A stretch of 64,000 bases of DNA, from assembly GCF_901538355.1 (NCBI RefSeq), contig NZ_LR593887.1, forward strand, positions 4,812,920 through 4,876,919, read 5' to 3'. The DNA is from Tuwongella immobilis (GTDB lineage: Bacteria > Planctomycetota > Planctomycetia > Gemmatales > Gemmataceae). Each line of letters starts with the position of its first letter. The first letter of the stretch is position 1. Below, one piece after another: positions 6,119 to 29,519 of this stretch. The position numbers were made by a program, and so were the translations under genes. Under the pieces are notes generated by a model. That model saw only the letters and a list, made by a program, of their open reading frames with translations. It was not told the DNA's origin and did not search any database.

Positions 6119-8394
6119 ATAAGCCCGGCAGCCCCGCCGGTTCCAACCCGCCCGCCGCCGTCCCCGAGCCGACAAGTCTCTCGGGGTGGTTCGCCGCCAA
6201 TGGCACATCGCTGGTCTTCACCGTGATTGCCCTGGTGCTGATTATCGTCTATCTGAATGTCCTTGATGTCATCAAAGTGGCGATCGGTTTGGGGCTGGTC
6301 GTGTTCATTCACGAACTGGGCCACTTCGCCGCCGCCAAGTGGTGCGATGTCCACGTCAAAACCTTCTCCATTGGCTTCGGTCCGGCGATTCCCGGATGCC
6401 GATTCCAATATGGCGAAACGACTTACATGGTCGCACTGATCCCGCTGGGCGGATACGTTCAGATGGTCGGCCAAGAAGACGGCAAAACCGAATCCGAAGA
6501 AGCCGACGATGATACGGACGATGATCCCCGTTCGTATCGCAACAAGACCGTCGGCCAGCGCATGCTGATTATTTCGGCCGGCGTGATCATGAATATCGTG
6601 CTGGCGTGCATCTGTTTTCTCATTGTCTATCCGCACGGCGTGAAGGAACGCCCCGCCGTCATCGGCCGCGTCGATACCAGCAGCGCGGCATGGGAATCGG
6701 GCATTCACACGGGCGTCACCATTCGCAAAATCAACGGCCACGAACGCCCGTGGTTTGCCGATGTTCAATCGACCGTCATGGCGACTTGGGCCGGCGAACA
6801 GGTGCGATTGGAAATTGATTCGCGTGACAATCCGAATCCCCGCGAAATTCTCGTCGAGCCGAAAGTCGGGCCGGATGCGCTGTATCCCATGTTGGGGATC
6901 ACGCCATCGTCCTCCACGCAACTGGAAAAATCGGCCCGCCCCGGATTCAAGCCGTATCGCCCGGGCAGCCCCGCCGCGAAGATGGAAAGTCCGTTCCTGC
7001 CAGGAGATCGGGTGATCGGCATGACCGACCCGACCGATCCCAGCAAGGTGACGCCGCTGCCCACTTCTGAGACCAATGATCGCATCGAAATGCGGCCCGA
7101 CTATGCGGAAATGTTGCGGCGCATGGTGTTGCTGCGCGATCGGCCGATCCAGTTTGAAGTGGTGACCGCCTCCTCGAGCGGAGATGCCGCCAAGGGCGAA
7201 ACCCGCCGCGTGACCGTGGCCCCCGCTGCGACGCTGAGCCTCGGCATGCGGATGCAAATGGGGGAAATCACCGGGTTGGTTGCCGACAGCCCAGCGGTGA
7301 AGGCCGGGGTGCAGGCTCGCAAAGCCGACGCCGCGACCCAGACAACCACCGCAGGCGATCGCATCGTGGAAGTTGCCGTGACCGATGCCGATGGTTCCGT
7401 CCTGCGATACGCCGCCACGCCGAGCGTTCCCCCGCAGCCGGGCAAGGAATTCCCGCTTGATCCGATCCGGCTCCCCGACCAACTCGAACGCTGGGCCGAG
7501 CGCCAGACTCAGAACCGCGAAGTCAAGCTGACGGTCCTGCGTCAAGTCGGCCACAAAGACGAACGAGTCACGCTGACCGCGACCTGGGATGATGCGCGCA
7601 AGTACGACCGCACGATGGTCTCCATGAGCAATTCGCCCGTTCCGCTCTACGGATTGGGACTGGGCTATCAAGTCAAGGCGATTGTCGATGCCGTCGAGCC
7701 CGGCTCACCCGCCGAGAAAGCGGGCGTTCAAAAGAGCGACGTGATTGTTGGCATTCAGCCGCAAACGCTTGACGAAGCGGGCAATGCCAAGCCCACCCGT
7801 TGGACGGATGTCAAAGAATCCGAATGGGGCTACGTCTTTGCACAACTTCAGTTGCTGGAAGTGCCGACGATGCAAATTCGGGTGTCTCGAGGCGATCAAA
7901 CTCCGATCGAACTGACCATCACTGGAGAGTACGATTCCACTTGGAACCAAGTCGATCGTGGGATGTACTTCCGGGACGATGTGCAGATTCAACAGGCCCA
8001 CACCTTCGGCGAAGCCCTGTCGATGGGTGTTGCTCGTACGCTGCGGTCGATCCGAATGATCTACACCAATCTCTCGGCGATGATCTTCGGACGCGTCTCA
8101 ACCCGCACGATGTCCGGCCCAATCACCATTGCCACGGTCTCCTACAGCATCGCTGGCGAGGATATTTGGCAATTTGTGCTGTTCATTGGTCTGATTAGCG
8201 TGAATCTGGCGGTCATCAACTTCCTGCCCATCCCGGTCTTGGATGGTGGGCATATGGTCTTTCTGCTGTACGAAAAGATTCGTGGCAAACCCGCGCCGGA
8301 ATCCCTGCAGAATATCGCGGTCTGGATTGGCCTGGCGATGATTCTCTCGCTGATGGCATTTGTCATGTTCCTCGACATTCGCCGACTGCTGTAA
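6091..8394 (+). CDS. rseP: site-2 zinc metalloprotease RseP family
   Basis: Intramembrane protease of the RseP/S2P family, which cleaves membrane-bound anti-sigma factors. After a Pro-rich leader and a first membrane helix, the zinc motif HELGH sits in FIHELGHFAAAKWC (~residue 73). Further membrane helices follow, then an extended periplasmic part with PDZ-like segments (about 190-260, 380-450 and 520-600). The second catalytic motif is NFLPIPVLDGGH (~708), near the C-terminal helices. Length is about 767 residues against about 450 in E. coli; the excess lies in the PDZ region. The start is placed at TTG 6091, because AGGAGG lies 7 bases upstream of it, inside dxr. A GTG at 6115 overlapping the dxr stop is the alternative. 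Confidence 0.9.
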   Translation: MESPQDSPVNKPGSPAGSNPPAAVPEPTSLSGWFAANGTSLVFTVIALVLIIVYLNVLDVIKVAIGLGLVVFIHELGHFAAAKWCDVHVKTFSIGFGPAIPGCRFQYGETTYMVALIPLGGYVQMVGQEDGKTESEEADDDTDDDPRSYRNKTVGQRMLIISAGVIMNIVLACICFLIVYPHGVKERPAVIGRVDTSSAAWESGIHTGVTIRKINGHERPWFADVQSTVMATWAGEQVRLEIDSRDNPNPREILVEPKVGPDALYPMLGITPSSSTQLEKSARPGFKPYRPGSPAAKMESPFLPGDRVIGMTDPTDPSKVTPLPTSETNDRIEMRPDYAEMLRRMVLLRDRPIQFEVVTASSSGDAAKGETRRVTVAPAATLSLGMRMQMGEITGLVADSPAVKAGVQARKADAATQTTTAGDRIVEVAVTDADGSVLRYAATPSVPPQPGKEFPLDPIRLPDQLERWAERQTQNREVKLTVLRQVGHKDERVTLTATWDDARKYDRTMVSMSNSPVPLYGLGLGYQVKAIVDAVEPGSPAEKAGVQKSDVIVGIQPQTLDEAGNAKPTRWTDVKESEWGYVFAQLQLLEVPTMQIRVSRGDQTPIELTITGEYDSTWNQVDRGMYFRDDVQIQQAHTFGEALSMGVARTLRSIRMIYTNLSAMIFGRVSTRTMSGPITIATVSYSIAGEDIWQFVLFIGLISVNLAVINFLPIPVLDGGHMVFLLYEKIRGKPAPESLQNIAVWIGLAMILSLMAFVMFLDIRRLL

Positions 8395-10018: not shown

Positions 10019-11203
10019 ATGAGAGAACAGTCCGAGGAATTGCGTGGACAATATTTTTCAATTTGTGCCAAAAGAGATTATGCGACACTCCGAGAGATGC
10101 TTCAAAATCATCCAGAGTTAACCCGAGATGAACGTTGGCTTCAAAGTGCTACGAGAAATCCTCCGATCGAGATTCTCAAAATTCTCCATGAGTTCGGTCT
10201 TGACCTGAATTTCGCACCCTATCACCCCGACCGTCGATTGCTTGATGAGGCTGCATCAGCCAAAAACTGGGCTGTTGTCCGGTGGTTGGTCGAGAATGGT
10301 GCGGCAGTGAATTATGCGCATCAGGGAGAGCCGCGGTGTCGGGCGTTGTTTTTTGCGATCATGGAGCCGAACATGGAGATGGTTCGGTTGTTAGTCGAGG
10401 CGGGGGCGCGATTGGATGTGTGTGGATCAATGAATATCACACCCTTAAGTTGGGCGATCTCTCATGGGCATCAGGAGGTCGTTGATTATTTGCTCGCAAA
10501 AGGGGCCATCCTCTCTGAGCAGGCCGCCAATTATCGGCATCCTCCCATCCGTTCGCCGATGTTGGATTATCTCGAATCACAGATCGGGCAAACAAAACCG
10601 TTAATCGATTTACCTGTCTTGGCCAACATGCCAGATACACTCCGACTCTTTCTGGTGGATACCGAAGATGCGTTCTTTGTTGTGACCGATGGCATGTCGA
10701 ACCGGCCGATGCAACCGCCCGAGGGGGTTGATGGCTATCAACGAGCGGAATTGGCATTTCGGTGTGGAGATTATTTTCCCCGACATCCTGCGGATTGGAA
10801 CATCCCGGAGGTGGCATGGGTGTTGGAATGGATGATCAAACTGGCCGAGTTTCCATTTACGCAAGGGATTTGGTTTGGAAAACCATATGGAGTGATCAGC
10901 AACGAAGAACCACCTCAACCATTATCAGAATTCACTGCCGCAACCTGTTGGGCATTGTTCGGAGAAAAAGATCCATTCTCAGAAGGATTTGTGATCGATA
11001 ACCAACAAGTCGTCATCTACACATTATATCCGATCCATACGGATGAACGCGATTTTGTGATATCCGATGGATTACGCCCATTGTTAGAACGATTCAACAT
11101 GCATGGAATGAGTGCGAATGTTGACCCGACTCGCCGAAGTGTCATCAGCGATCCACCACCGTTGATCGCCGACAATGATGAACGCGAACGTGATGGCATG
11201 TGA
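10019..11203 (+). CDS. ankyrin-repeat protein with C-terminal SUFU (suppressor of fused) domain, copy 1
   Basis: A 394-residue protein with GAGGAT 6-10 bases before the ATG. Ankyrin repeats span about residues 45-165 (for example NWAVVRWLVENGAAVNYAH, EMVRLLVEAGARLDVCGS and QEVVDYLLAKGA). The rest (about 200-365) matches the SUFU fold: a DGMSNRPM-type motif, AELAFRCGD, then WVLEWMIKLAEFP, GKPYGV and late IYTLYPIHTDERDF. Bacterial SUFU proteins are known mostly as immunity proteins of polymorphic toxin systems, and ankyrin modules also recur there. It is followed by a near-identical paralogue 64 bases on. There is no signal peptide, so it is cytoplasmic. Confidence 0.8.
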   Translation: MREQSEELRGQYFSICAKRDYATLREMLQNHPELTRDERWLQSATRNPPIEILKILHEFGLDLNFAPYHPDRRLLDEAASAKNWAVVRWLVENGAAVNYAHQGEPRCRALFFAIMEPNMEMVRLLVEAGARLDVCGSMNITPLSWAISHGHQEVVDYLLAKGAILSEQAANYRHPPIRSPMLDYLESQIGQTKPLIDLPVLANMPDTLRLFLVDTEDAFFVVTDGMSNRPMQPPEGVDGYQRAELAFRCGDYFPRHPADWNIPEVAWVLEWMIKLAEFPFTQGIWFGKPYGVISNEEPPQPLSEFTAATCWALFGEKDPFSEGFVIDNQQVVIYTLYPIHTDERDFVISDGLRPLLERFNMHGMSANVDPTRRSVISDPPPLIADNDERERDGM

Positions 11204-11266: not shown

Positions 11267-12466
11267 ATGTCGGATTCTGTGATACAGATGATGGGTCGTT
11301 TCATGGCGATAAGTGATCGATCCGACTGCAACCAACTGAGAAAAATGCTTCAAGAAACCCCGCACATTCTAAAGGATGAAATGTGGCTAAGCAGTTCACT
11401 ATCTCGTGTTGTTTCGGATTTGAATTCATTAGAAATTCTCAAAACTCTCCATGAGTTCGGTCTTGACCTGAATTTCGCACCCTATCACCTCGACCGTCGA
11501 TTGCTTGATGAGGCTGCATCAGCCAAAAACTGGGCTGTTGTCCGGTGGTTGGTCGAGAATGGTGCGGAGGTGAATTATGCGCATCAGGGAGAGCCGCGGT
11601 GTCGGGCGTTGTTTTTTGCGATCATGGAGCCGAACATGGAGATGGTTCGGTTGTTAGTCGAGGCGGGGGCGCGATTGGATGTGTGTGGATCAATGAATAT
11701 CACACCCTTAAGTTGGGCGATCTCTCATGGGCATCAGGAGGTCGTTGATTATTTGCTCGCAAAAGGGGCCATCCTTTCTGAGCAGGCCGCCAATTATCGG
11801 CATCCTCCCACCCGTTCGCCGATGTTGGATTATCTCGAATCACAGATCGGGCAAACAAAACCGTTAATCGATTTACCTGTCTTGGCCAACATGCCAGATA
11901 CACTCCGACTCTTTCTGGTGGATACCGAAGATGCGTTCTTTGTTGTGACCGATGGTATGTCGAACCGGCCGATACAACCGCCCGAGGGGGTTGATGGCTA
12001 TCAACGAGCGGAATTGGCATTTCGGTGTGGAGATTTTTTTCCCCGACATCCTGCCGATTGGAACATCCCGGAGGTGGCATGGGTGTTGGAATGGATGATC
12101 AAACTGGCCGAATTTCCATTTACGCAAGGGATTTGGTTTGGAAAACCATATGGAGTGATCAGCAACGAAGAACCACCTCAACCATTATCAGAATTCACTG
12201 CCGCAACCTGTTGGGCATTGTTCGGGGAAAAAGATCCATTCTCAGAAGGATTTGTGATCGATAACCAACAAGTCGTCATCTACACATTATATCCGATCCA
12301 TACGGATGAACGCGATTTTGTGATATCCGATGGATTACGCCCATTGTTAGAACGATTCAACACGCATGGAATGAGTGCGAATGTTGACCCGACTCGCCCA
12401 AGTGTCATCAGCGATCCACCACCGTTGATCGCCGAGAATGATGAACGCGAACGTGATGGCATGTGA
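11267..12466 (+). CDS. ankyrin-repeat protein with C-terminal SUFU domain, copy 2
   Basis: A 399-residue tandem paralogue of the gene before it. From residue 62 onward the two proteins differ at only about eight positions, mostly single-base changes. The first 60 residues are clearly diverged (MSDSVIQMMGRFMAISDRS here, MREQSEELRGQYFSICAKR in copy 1). The start is taken at 11267, with GAGAGA upstream; a TTG at 11246 is the alternative. Domain layout is the same: ankyrin repeats followed by SUFU. A diverged N-terminus with an almost identical body suggests recent duplication with selection or recombination acting on the N-terminus. Confidence 0.8.
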   Translation: MSDSVIQMMGRFMAISDRSDCNQLRKMLQETPHILKDEMWLSSSLSRVVSDLNSLEILKTLHEFGLDLNFAPYHLDRRLLDEAASAKNWAVVRWLVENGAEVNYAHQGEPRCRALFFAIMEPNMEMVRLLVEAGARLDVCGSMNITPLSWAISHGHQEVVDYLLAKGAILSEQAANYRHPPTRSPMLDYLESQIGQTKPLIDLPVLANMPDTLRLFLVDTEDAFFVVTDGMSNRPIQPPEGVDGYQRAELAFRCGDFFPRHPADWNIPEVAWVLEWMIKLAEFPFTQGIWFGKPYGVISNEEPPQPLSEFTAATCWALFGEKDPFSEGFVIDNQQVVIYTLYPIHTDERDFVISDGLRPLLERFNTHGMSANVDPTRPSVISDPPPLIAENDERERDGM

Positions 12467-24009: not shown

Positions 24010-24290
24010 CTCAAAATGATGGGTATTGAATTCGGGCCGAATCGTTCTATCTCTTCGGCGACGGTGTATACCGCATGGTCGGGCTGTCGTACCGCTGGTT
24101 GATTTCCTTTCGCTTCGCGAAAACGCTTCGTGGAACAGGACGGCGTACTTTGGGTCAACCTTATCGACTAACTCTTGGTCGAAGCAGTTCGACCCCAGGT
24201 GTTCCCTGCTCCGAACAGATGCCGTTCCGCCCCGAGAATGTCGCCCTCGGACAGGCACTTGACCGCGATCTTGAAGTGCGGGCTATCTGC
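24010..24290 (-). pseudogene. possible decayed gene fragment with frame changes
   Basis: Protein-like pieces appear in successive frames on the minus strand: HFKIAVKCLSEGDILGAERH, then FDQELVDKVDPKYAVLFHEA, then GNQPAVRQPDHAVYTVAEE. Together they would make one protein of about 95 residues broken by two frameshifts. No family was recognised. The right part overlaps the decayed distal end of the cassette array, so this may be partly chance. Confidence 0.3.
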
Positions 24291-24684
24291 GGCACAGGCC
24301 ATCGCCTGGTTTGGCGTCTCGGCCGGGCGGGGTGACCAGCTCGACTGTGTGCCCGTCGAGGTCGCGGACCACGGCCCGACGGCCCCACTCCGAGTCATGC
24401 GGCTCAGCGACCACCTCGGCGCCGAGCGCTTGTACCGATGGCACCAACTCGTCCACAGAATCCACGCTGAAGCCGATCCGCGTGCCGGTCGTCGGTGATC
24501 GGCCCGCTGCGAGCGGGTACAGCTCGAACACGAACCCGTTGACGCTCGACGAGTAATGCTCCGGGCCGTCCCCGTGCCGCTCCGTGGTGAACAGCAGGCC
24601 CAGCGCGCGGTAGAACCGGGCAGCCCGGTGGATGTCGGGCGACCGCAGCACGAGCAGGTTCACCATCGGTGGGGCTGCGAACAC
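24283..24684 (-). CDS. VOC-family (glyoxalase/bleomycin-resistance fold) protein, integron-type cassette gene
   Basis: A 133-residue protein with the paired beta-alpha-beta-beta-beta fold. The first half is VNLLVLRSPDIHRAARFYRALGLLF...; the second is RIGFSVDSVDELVPSVQALG...VRDLDGHTVELVTPP, with the C-terminal metal-ligand Glu position (VELV). The GTG start at 24684 lies 7 bases after GGAGG, and this ribosome site directly abuts the attC-like repeat. An ATG at 24666 is the alternative. Its 3' end runs into the sequence CGCCAAACCAGGCG, a variant of the cassette-end motif. The family includes dioxygenases and antibiotic-binding proteins; the substrate is unknown. GC-rich relative to the neighbourhood. 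Confidence 0.75.
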   Translation of the reverse strand: MFAAPPMVNLLVLRSPDIHRAARFYRALGLLFTTERHGDGPEHYSSSVNGFVFELYPLAAGRSPTTGTRIGFSVDSVDELVPSVQALGAEVVAEPHDSEWGRRAVVRDLDGHTVELVTPPGRDAKPGDGLCRR

Positions 24685-24699
24685 CCGACGCCCTCCGCC

Positions 24700-24790
24700 G
24701 CCGAACGAACAAGCTCAGCAGCCCCGCCTCGGGGAGCCAAGCATCAGAGACATCCGATGAGGCGGGGGCGGCTGTCGCGCCTGGTTCGGC
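24700..24790 (-). repeat. attC-like site 1
   Basis: Read on the minus strand: CGCCGAAC, an imperfect palindrome with GC-rich arms (CCCCCGCCTCATCGG pairing with CCGAGGCGGGG), then GTTCGGCG. The outer 8-mers are perfect inverted complements, like the R'' and R' boxes of integron attC sites. Length is 91 bp. It separates the VOC gene from the next minus-strand gene. Confidence 0.6.
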
Positions 24791-24799
24791 GTGCCTTTG

Positions 24800-25240
24800 C
24801 TACCCCTCGCGCCGCCAGTTGCAGAACCACCCGGCCAGCTCGACCGCCGGCGCGCCCAGCCAGTACATGATGCCGCTCAGCTCGGGCGGCACCTCACCGG
24901 AGAACTCGGGCGGCACCAGCGCCCGGTACGCCTTGCCCACCTTGCGCTTGCCGAACTGGGACGCCAGGTACAGCGGCACCAGCCGGTTGCTCAAGTTGAG
25001 CCGCGACGCACCGATGGCCCGCAGCGCATCCTCAACGGAGAGCGGGCACCACGGCTCCAACTCGACCAGCAGGCACGACGCCCACGCATCGGCTGGAGCG
25101 AGGTCGGTATCTAGCGCGAGTGGCCAGAGCAGCCCGAACACCTCGTCCGCTGCTCGGCCTCGGAGCGCGGCCGCCAGTTGCCGGAAGCGGTCGAGCGTCA
25201 TCGGCGCTGCGAGGGCCGCCCGCAGGTCTTCGGCTGTCAC
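24800..25240 (-). CDS. hypothetical cassette protein
   Basis: A 146-residue, mostly helical, GC-rich gene: LRAALAAPMTLDRFRQLAAAL, CLLVELEPWCPLSVEDALRAIGAS and VELAGWFCNW. GTG start at 25240 with GGAGG about 10 bases upstream, again directly next to the attC-like GTTCGGCG end. There is no own promoter-like spacing and no family was recognised. It sits between two attC-like sites, as an integron gene cassette would. Confidence 0.55.
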   Translation of the reverse strand: MTAEDLRAALAAPMTLDRFRQLAAALRGRAADEVFGLLWPLALDTDLAPADAWASCLLVELEPWCPLSVEDALRAIGASRLNLSNRLVPLYLASQFGKRKVGKAYRALVPPEFSGEVPPELSGIMYWLGAPAVELAGWFCNWRREG

Positions 25241-25258
25241 CCCCGGATGCCCTCCGCC

Positions 25259-25354
25259 GCCGAACGACCCAGCTCAGCAGCGGCGGGGCACCGGCGAGCT
25301 TGAAGTCCTAGAAACCTATCGTGCCCCGCCGTCTGCTGCAGCGCCTGGTTCGGC
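25259..25354 (-). repeat. attC-like site 2 (best preserved)
   Basis: 96 bp from GCCGAAC to GTTCGGC. On the minus strand the arms GCTGCAGCAGACGGCGGGGCAC and GTGCCCCGCCGCTGCTGAGC pair almost completely. A two-base bulge on one side resembles the extrahelical bases of attC hairpins. It overlaps the 3' end of the upstream cassette gene, as is common in cassettes. Confidence 0.65.
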
Positions 25355-25841
25355 GTGCCTTGTTGTACTCGGCGAGATCGACCGCCTCGGGGAAGTACCG
25401 CCGGAAGCTCTCGCCGATGGCCCGATCCTTGCACAGCAGTAGCGTGCTTGTCGAGTCCCAGCACACGATCTCAACCTCGGCCAGCGGGTGCTGGATGCGC
25501 GGCTCGTCCACCCAGAACCCGGCGTTGCCGTCCGCGTAGGGGACGACCGCCAACCGATCCAGGTCGAGCGATACGCCTAGCGGGAAGCTGGACAGCACCG
25601 CCCACACAAACTGCATGTCATGCTCGGCCACCAGCCTCGACAATTCCTCGCCAGTCCGCCAGTGCGGCCCACTGCCGATGAACGGTGCATGTTCGTCGTC
25701 CTCGTGAACCCCAAGCCAGCCGTAATCCAGATCGGTGATGAGCCAGTTGAAGTCACGCTGCCGATCGCCGATGGCTCGGAAGACGAGGCGCAGGTCGGTG
25801 AAGTACTCCATCTCGCAGCGGCCTTCGAGAAGCGTCTCCAC
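25308..25841 (-). CDS. hypothetical cassette protein
   Basis: A 177-residue protein starting at GTG 25841, with GGAGG 9 bases upstream inside the cassette boundary; an ATG at 25811 (MEYFTDLRLVFRAIG) is possible. The core reads as a folded soluble protein: FNWLITDLDYGWLGVHEDDE, EELSRLVAEHDMQFVWAVLSSF and VCWDSTSTLLLCKD. The last ~20 residues (RRTRRCSRRRG) are encoded by the attC-like repeat, and the conserved-looking part ends before it. The fold recalls small immunity-type proteins, but no family is claimed. Confidence 0.6.
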   Translation of the reverse strand: METLLEGRCEMEYFTDLRLVFRAIGDRQRDFNWLITDLDYGWLGVHEDDEHAPFIGSGPHWRTGEELSRLVAEHDMQFVWAVLSSFPLGVSLDLDRLAVVPYADGNAGFWVDEPRIQHPLAEVEIVCWDSTSTLLLCKDRAIGESFRRYFPEAVDLAEYNKARRTRRCSRRRGTIGF

Positions 25842-25858
25842 CGCCGTTGTCCTCCGCC

Positions 25859-26115
25859 GCCGAACTCTTGATTCGATTGCGCCGCAAGGAAACGATCCTT
25901 GCACACCGCGCAATCGATCACGGTCGCATCGTTGTCTTCGCTTTCTGCGTAAATTCAATCCCAATCGTTGATTCCGGTCATTTTCCCCGAATTCGTCGCC
26001 AGCGAACGATTGCGCTGGATGCAATCGTTCGTGGGAAATCACACTTGCGTCCTGCATGATTCTTCGAGGTCAAGCAGAGGCAAGCCACGCCATCTGCTGC
26101 AGCGTCGGGTTCGGC
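25859..26115 (-). repeat. attC-like boundary 3, enlarged or rearranged
   Basis: GCCGAAC (25859-25865) and GTTCGGC (26109-26115) are in the same relation as in the other two sites but 257 bp apart. The left arm CGCTGCAGCAGATGGCG resembles site 2. The middle contains an unrelated AT-richer insert with two palindromes: CGATTGCG...CGCAATCG around 25873-25914, and CGAACGATTGC / GCAATCGTTCG at 26003-26013 and 26021-26031. Confidence 0.4.
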
Positions 26116-26387
26116 GTGTGCGCGACGCCCTCGCTCGAACTCCGGCAACGCCCAGTATCCCAGTCGCGGCCGCTGCAACAGGATGGCCGCCACCATGCAC
26201 GCCGCGAAGACGAGCAGCGGGTACTGACACCGCTGCCATCGCGTCGGGGCGTAAACGAATAGCAGGGCCGGCGGGAACAATCAGAACGCGATGGCCCACG
26301 CCCTAAACTCCTCGAAGGAGTCGGACAGCAGGACGAAGTCAGCCTTCAGGCCGACCAGCCACACCACGCCCAGAACGCTGTCTTCAC
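25978..26387 (-). pseudogene. frameshifted small membrane protein gene in a cassette
   Basis: GGAGG followed by GTG at 26387 begins VKTAFWAW, but the frame soon stops. The continuation is readable in a second frame (WLVGLKADFVLLSDSFEEF, RAWAIAF then TGA) and then a third (LFPPALLFVYAPTRW, YPLLVFAACMVAAILL, GYWALPEFE). Joined, these give a protein of about 85 residues with two or three hydrophobic segments. Two frameshifts make it a pseudogene unless the assembly is wrong. The last frame runs through the attC-like motif to 25978. Confidence 0.45.
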
Positions 26388-26407
26388 AGGCAACCTCCGT
26401 TTCCGTC

Positions 26408-26430
26408 GCCGAACAACGGAATCGGCGTGC
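26408..26430 (-). repeat. collapsed attC-like site
   Basis: On the minus strand GCACGCCGA is joined, after a few bases, to TTGTTCGGCG. The two outer boxes are present but the ~80-bp palindromic middle is missing, as expected if the hairpin was deleted. Confidence 0.4.
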
Positions 26431-27203: not shown

Positions 27204-27451
27204 GTTCGCCCCTCCGAAAAGCCTCTGCCGTCGAACAACCGATGATCCCGCGACGTGTCGCAGAGCAACACCAGATCACGCGAGTCTGAGCAGACGCCTA
27301 CGTTCGTCTGAACCCGTTGTCAGATCACGACTTCCGACATCACACCGCGATAATCGCGGCGAAGGATCACGCGGTAACGGCTACCTGCGTCGAATCGCGA
27401 TCCGCTCAAACCATCGAGCGGGATATCGATGCCTCGCCCGCCCTGGTTTTA

Positions 27452-27608
27452 TGAGGATCTCGGACACAGGCGAATTCTCGTCCGGTCGAATCATAAACCG
27501 CTACAAATTGATTGTCAAGCAGTTCTACCCTTTGACACTATTTTCATTACGATGAATTGCCTGGCTCCTGCCGCGAATCACTCGGGCCGCCACACATCGA
27601 ATCACGCG
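27452..27608. repeat. long direct repeat, copy 1
   Basis: About 157 bp from TGAGGATCTCGGACAC to ATCACGCG, repeated in the same orientation at 29361-29519 with a few substitutions and small indels. The surrounding 27204-27813 interval holds no supported gene beyond this repeat. Confidence 0.85.
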
Positions 27609-28934: not shown

Positions 28935-29174
28935 GACACACCTCCCCTTGCAAAAGCCGAACTCATCAATTGGCTGCGAACGTCGCAGCCTCTTTCTGAC
29001 CTACTTTTATCATGATCGGCTGCGAAGACTCGCGGCCGATCATGACTCCCTACTGCTGGGTTTCTTCACTCCAAGCCATTGCTGGCAAACTACTTGCATT
29101 CCGCCAGCTATGCTCTTGACGAGCCATATTCTTGTGTTCGGCTGCAAGCGACTGCCAGTTGGTCCGGTGGCATC

Positions 29175-29345
29175 TCCTTGCAACAGATCCGCTGGGCTTT
29201 GAATGTTGTCCCGGTTTCGCAACAGCACATGGGTGTCGATTATCGCCGCATCCACATCAGCATGTCCGAGCAACTCCAGCACGGGGCGGAAGTCCGGACT
29301 AGCCTCGAGTCGACTATGTCGCAAACGCATGCTGGAACGTGTGAC
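29175..29345 (-). pseudogene. fragment of an integron-type tyrosine recombinase (IntI-like)
   Basis: About 50 residues match the C-terminal end of integron integrases: LRHS, then VLELLGHADVDAAIIDTHVL and a QSPADLL tail. GHADV carries the box II His/Trp-position motif. The R-S-P-[AL]-D tail after THVL is characteristic of IntI rather than XerC/D. The catalytic Tyr of IYTHV is Asp here (IDTHV), and the HxLRHS His is lost. Everything N-terminal is missing; the fragment begins next to copy 2 of the long direct repeat. Clearly non-functional. Confidence 0.65.
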
Positions 29346-29360
29346 ATGACGCTCACTTCG

Positions 29361-29519
29361 TGAGGATCTCGGACACATGCGAATTCTCGTCTGGTCGAAT
29401 CATAAACCGCTACAAATTGACTATCAAGCAGTTCTACCCTTTGACACTATTTTTTCATTGCGACGAATTGCCTGGCTCCTGCCGCGAATCACTCGGGCCG
29501 CCACGCTTTGAATCACGCG
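29361..29519. repeat. long direct repeat, copy 2
   Basis: About 159 bp, same orientation as 27452-27608 and nearly identical, including TTCTACCCTTTGACACTATT and CACTCGGGCCGCCAC. It abuts the truncated integrase fragment. From its end to 29702 no gene is supported. Confidence 0.85.

Follow-up and report, generated by a model that had tools for sequence, protein, structure and literature searches.

When a cassette enters an integron, the integrase, IntI, recombines the attC site of the cassette, as a folded bottom strand, with the attI site. In a reversed layout, attI lies directly behind the integrase gene, intI, and because of that placement the cassettes and intI share one reading direction. 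Integrases pointing the same way as their cassettes are described for Treponema in passages of PMC3607928, and passages of other reports mention an inverted-IntI sub-clade (PMC8352920) and the reverse orientation of typical Spirochaetota IntIs (PMC9668308). Here, we describe the relic of an IntI C-terminus at positions 29175-29345 (minus strand) of a 64,000-nucleotide stretch of DNA, hereafter the window, from the planctomycete Tuwongella immobilis (NZ_LR593887.1, positions 4,812,920 to 4,876,919), which belongs to a 6.69-Mb single-contig genome. The relic consists of the 3′ end of an intI gene, and together with what looks like a worn attI site behind it, it is likely to be the stump of a reversed, same-direction chromosomal integron platform in a Gemmatales planctomycete. 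Since same-direction integrons are already in print, it would represent a further, now decayed example of a known, less common integron type.

Several described systems resemble parts of this locus. The reversed integrons of Treponema denticola and its relatives, the passages of PMC8352920 speaking of an inverted-IntI sub-clade, would share the reversed layout with it; the Tuwongella relic differs in keeping only the last 50-odd codons of intI, in having lost the catalytic Tyr, in the apparently worn state of its attI and in its phylum, Planctomycetota. The cassettes found at 24.3-26.1 kb of the window recall a cluster of attC sites lacking an integron integrase (CALIN) in that attC sites are present while the genome offers no working intI, although here a dead integrase stump stands nearby. 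Finally, the Delta-attI-type cassettes of class 1 and class 2 integrons, which according to passages of PMC12901181 carry attI-derived sequence at their end in place of a full attC, are comparable to a composite site at 26118-25842, whereas this composite lies in a chromosomal planctomycete array and retains an attC left half and the end of an intI gene. An initial annotation of this DNA had mentioned reports of same-direction integrases for both Treponema and certain planctomycetes. The statement on Treponema holds, whereas no passage naming planctomycetes was found among the sources. A literature search likewise found no work joining a reversed or same-orientation integron integrase with Gemmata, and the passages found on integrons and Rhodopirellula baltica contain no statement on the direction of intI.

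The integrase relic

Translation of positions 29345-29175 on the minus strand gives 57 residues, VTRSSMRLRHSRLEASPDFRPVLELLGHADVDAAIIDTHVLLRNRDNIQSPADLLQG, whose best NCBIfam match is TIGR02249, the model for integron integrases, with 32.7 bits (E 5e-8) over profile positions 264-314 of 315. This score is far below the 265-bit whole-protein cut-off of the family, as is expected of a fragment. A scan of the whole genome with TIGR02249 also recovered the relic unprompted (E 3.9e-7, at 29184-29393), and its sole match in the PDB was IntI4 of Vibrio cholerae (2a3v, E 0.0016). When aligned to an intact relative, the relic reached a local score of 100, and 500 shuffles of the relic peptide peaked at 48. 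A Pfam search at E-values of up to 1 returned no integrase match. The claim of the initial annotation that this segment encodes the extreme C-terminus of IntI is therefore confirmed.

The initial annotation had also read four motifs in the segment (LRHS, LLGHADV, THVL and SPADLL) along with a change of the catalytic Tyr to Asp, and every one of these was found again. Alignment with complete integrases places the Asp in the TTMIYTHVL box and reveals a further lesion, the deletion of four residues (FATH) directly after LRHS. Everything upstream of the C-terminal part is missing, including the region of the IntI-specific additional domain. With the 5′ part gone, four codons near the catalytic Arg deleted and the nucleophilic Tyr replaced by Asp, the relic lacks the catalytic residues of a working IntI and should not recombine DNA. 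It is the dead stump of an integron integrase, to which it is homologous, and the 112-amino-acid open reading frame (ORF) that encloses it (29040-29378, minus strand) is probably no working gene.

The whole-genome scan with TIGR02249 yielded no IntI above the family cut-off, and the genome thus has no intact intI such as a functional integron would carry. Two other IntI fragments occur, at C1:5816100-5816564 and C1:5361230-5361388, both sharing the strand of the attC sites that follow them; the relic matches them at only 53% and 50%. An attC model derived from 13 of the genome's own sites identified at least 50 attC sites at E ≤ 0.01 genome-wide, with 150 of 3,750 candidates scored. Elsewhere on the contig, two cassette arrays face each other (G000:C1:1511314-1520189, plus strand, and 1523232-1526854, minus strand), each running from an attI-type segment and neither with an IntI match nearby. 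At G000:C1:6143946-6145672 (minus strand), two adjacent genes for tyrosine recombinases (334 and 383 amino acids) give only weak IntI scores.

The site behind the relic and its counterparts in relatives

Downstream of the relic on the same strand lies a degenerate attI-like site (28956-28990), composed of the hairpin GGCTGCGA-CGT-TCGCAGCC (28990-28972, with a stem of 8 bp), the segment AATTGATGA and the heptamer GTTCGGC (28962-28956). The profile match ends ~222 nucleotides before the G at 28962, and the corresponding distance in same-direction genes is ~131-294 nucleotides. GTTCGGC occurs 31 times in the window, and only at this site and at 25865, in the composite site, is it accompanied by AAT and a hairpin stem of at least 7. 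These features suggest that the site at 28962 is the former attI of the platform, now worn. The second-best attI-like core of the window, at 27236 on the minus strand, scores 13.6 and stands just before a gene at 27203-26706; it is near the noise (the next scores 10.9) and was not used.

A comparison of gene order with complete integrons showed that same-direction intI genes are common in the Gemmatales. The same-direction integrons of this order (L061, L064, L065, L069, L215, L216 and others) share with the relic the IntI C-terminus, an attI-like motif at the distance given above and attC sites recognized by the same model; theirs are complete integrases, which the relic is not. The common form of the motif is AAT-N4-7-GTTCGGC, often preceded by a hairpin, and it was counted as AAT-N4-7-GTT[AC]GGC at 60-330 nucleotides behind intI. 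The direction of intI at each locus was assigned by us from attC matches, and L089 (G004), an IntI piece without a C-terminus, was excluded from all counts. The first set comprised 28 IntI entries (15 same-direction, 6 divergent and 7 with no direction assigned), and the motif occurred in 12 of the 15 same-direction entries, in none of the 6 divergent ones and in 1 of the 6 unassigned ones with more than 200 nucleotides of sequence. A second set of 20 entries (8 same-direction, 1 divergent and 11 unassigned) was fetched after the motif had been fixed; here, it was found in 7 of 8, 0 of 1 and 4 of 8 entries, respectively, under the same length limit for the unassigned. Pooled, the motif stands behind 19 of 23 same-direction intI genes and behind none of the 7 divergent ones, against a background of 24 occurrences in 1,076,726 strand positions, or ~0.006 per 270 nucleotides. 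The hairpin is not general: in the first set, 5 of the 15 same-direction entries have a perfect stem of at least 7 there (G027, G009, G031a, G000a and G000b).

In a tree built from 34 integrases, the same-direction IntIs of planctomycetes cluster together in 14 rows (9 same-direction and 5 unassigned) with support of 94/94, and the divergent planctomycete IntIs form a separate group with support of 100/99. The SPAD tail was considered as a way of recognizing the reversed type and rejected, as it occurs at 3 of the 23 same-direction loci and at none of the 7 divergent ones and so does not discriminate. A scan of named genomes helped little; most of its matches came from proteobacteria.

The cassette array and the flanking repeats

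The array at 24.3-26.1 kb lies 3′ of the relic at a distance of ~3 kb, and all of it is on the minus strand, so that the relic and the cassettes share one orientation, as the initial annotation had noted. Two full attC sites occur, at 25250-25358 (125.4 bits, E 8.1e-24) and 24691-24794 (97.5 bits, E 6.7e-18), both being among the 13 from which the model was built; the former folds as a bottom-strand hairpin with a z of -4.4. Together with the composite site, they give the window the recombination sites of an array, with GCCGAAC and GTTCGGC ends and the bottom-strand hairpin. The cassette genes, likewise on the minus strand, are found at 25308-25805 (no useful family match), 24800-25240 (no family match) and 24283-24684, the last encoding a member of the glyoxalase superfamily (Pfam PF00903, E 2e-12). 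A weak match at 26399-26430 on the same strand (14.4 bits, E 0.031) is possibly a collapsed attC remnant that has lost its hairpin.

The composite recombination site (25842-26118, minus strand) heads the array. It combines an attC left half, the final codons (~26075-26039) of an IntI of the LDLGETLGAQE type, and an attI-type segment with a hairpin and GTTCGGC (25865-25859). The IntI tail in this site differs from the relic and matches a C-terminal extension of the genome's two other IntI fragments, an extension that the relic does not have. Sites of the same composite make are also present at G000:C1:1522397-1522613 and 1526630-1526854 (both minus strand), where different genes end in them, and four further copies in the genome retain only the attI-type part.

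Two direct repeats of ~160 bp, 93% alike over 159 nucleotides, punctuate the region on the minus strand. Repeat B (29361-29519) stops at the point where the relic starts, which places the break that cost intI its front at the boundary of the repeat; repeat A (27452-27608) lies between the relic and the array. Each contains a promoter-like site facing the cassettes, TTGACA-17-TATGAT at 27518-27490 in A and TTGATA-17-TATGAT at 29427-29399 in B, and these are the two best of the region, with 11 and 10 of 12 matches. A search of the whole genome found no further copy. A transposon was considered and rejected for the repeats, as there are two genomic copies only, both local, and for the same reason a local duplication is the likelier origin.

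Between the relic and the array are three minus-strand frames without useful family matches, and for the 201-amino-acid ORF at 28419-27814 no relative was found among 44 genomes at E 1e-5. A flanking FAD (flavin adenine dinucleotide) gene is present in 12 of the 44 relatives. In the 11 of those 12 with flanks of ~1.5 kb, neither cmk nor plsC was matched, and for this reason no empty site could be read by way of the FAD gene. Farther away, at 10365-10456 and 11628-11719 on the plus strand, two identical 92-base stretches stand 1,263 bases apart and probably reflect a repeated domain or a local duplication.

Competing origins and the fate of the platform

The initial annotation had proposed that the relic may be what remains of a reversed integron, and this proposal is supported by the attI-like site 3′ of the relic, a position that attI takes in the reversed layout alone, and by the two other IntI fragments, which also run parallel to their arrays. 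Several observations weigh against it. The best local scores of the relic mix same-direction, divergent and unassigned integrases, and the fragment is too short for a tree. In a base-by-base comparison with the 30-column attI core, the site at 28962 scores only 3.27 and ranks 51 of 127,940 positions; it is weak by this score alone, as the hairpin and the distance are not counted there. On the plus strand, the hairpin (28972-28990) also has the score of a terminator. Moreover, the unfiltered attC model gave nothing below E 0.2 from 28962 to ~26.75 kb. As ~2.5 kb without a recognizable attC separates the 28962 site from the array, the two may not have been continuous. The array is also headed by an att site bearing the tail of a different IntI, and the relic may consequently not be its integrase.

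Other origins of the relic can be weighed against the same evidence. It is very improbable that the fragment comes from another tyrosine recombinase, such as XerC, XerD or a phage integrase, even though it is the C-terminus of a tyrosine recombinase and does match the XerC and XerD models of NCBIfam weakly (18.2 and 14.2 bits). The IntI model scores 32.7 bits with the SP[AL]D tail included, the IntIs of relatives reach local scores of up to 111 where the genome's own Xer-like genes give 67 and 61, the PDB offers IntI4 alone, and no phage-family integrase was matched in PHROGs at E-values of up to 10; the better Xer or phage match that would have spoken against an IntI origin is absent. A different doubt concerns orientation. 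The relic could descend from a divergent integron made parallel by a later inversion or recombination, with the 28962 site being a chance match or a terminator. Divergent integrons do occur in the same class (7 loci assigned), the region has been rearranged, as repeats A and B attest, and the hairpin would also fit a terminator. Nevertheless, this history seems unlikely given that no divergent locus has the motif behind intI, yet in the relic it sits at the distance typical of same-direction genes, and that both other IntI fragments of the genome are same-direction. The platform was probably reversed from the start and not through later rearrangement.

Two further possibilities concern how many platforms existed and whether they were fixed. 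Two platforms may have decayed here, one leaving the relic and the attI at 28.96 kb and the other surviving in the composite site at 26.1-25.8 kb, in which case the relic would not be the integrase of these cassettes. This is compatible with a reversed platform at the relic, and we regard it as slightly favored, considering that the composite IntI tail resembles the extension of the genome's two other fragments, and that the relic is so distant from both of them. Against it, composite sites of the same make stand behind different genes at three genomic places, so the one here may have come as the end of a cassette and not from a platform. It is also conceivable, if rather doubtful, that a reversed intI with its attI, which has the form of a cassette, can itself be captured, copied and left in arrays, so that the relic, the two fragments and the composite sites would be the remains of integrase cassettes and not of fixed platforms. 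The intI of L064 (8223-9197) does lie between an attC (8000-8105) and its own attI, with 10 same-strand attC sites upstream of the gene and 8 downstream, the closest of the upstream ones ending 118 nucleotides before the first intI ATG shown; that of L216 (7195-8136) has 3 same-strand attC sites before it and 12 behind, and the IntI fragment of L047 directly follows an attC. However, no same-strand attC was found upstream in 16 of 18 same-direction loci of relatives with at least 2 kb of upstream sequence, and the same picture would arise if a platform had inserted at the end of an older array. With only 2 of 18 loci showing embedding, and stacked platforms looking alike, this origin is rated low. 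If true, reversed integrons would gain a route of spreading that divergent integrons lack.

Returning to the stump of a reversed platform as the likeliest origin, the front of intI may have been lost at the edge of the 160-bp direct repeat, an event suggested by the coincidence of the two boundaries. The nearby cassettes are stranded as a CALIN and could be mobilized only by an integrase supplied from elsewhere. Such a history would mean that reversed platforms of the Gemmatales decay while their cassettes persist. The attI signature behind intI, often a hairpin and then AAT and GTTCGGC, offers a simple way to spot reversed platforms and their stumps in other genomes.
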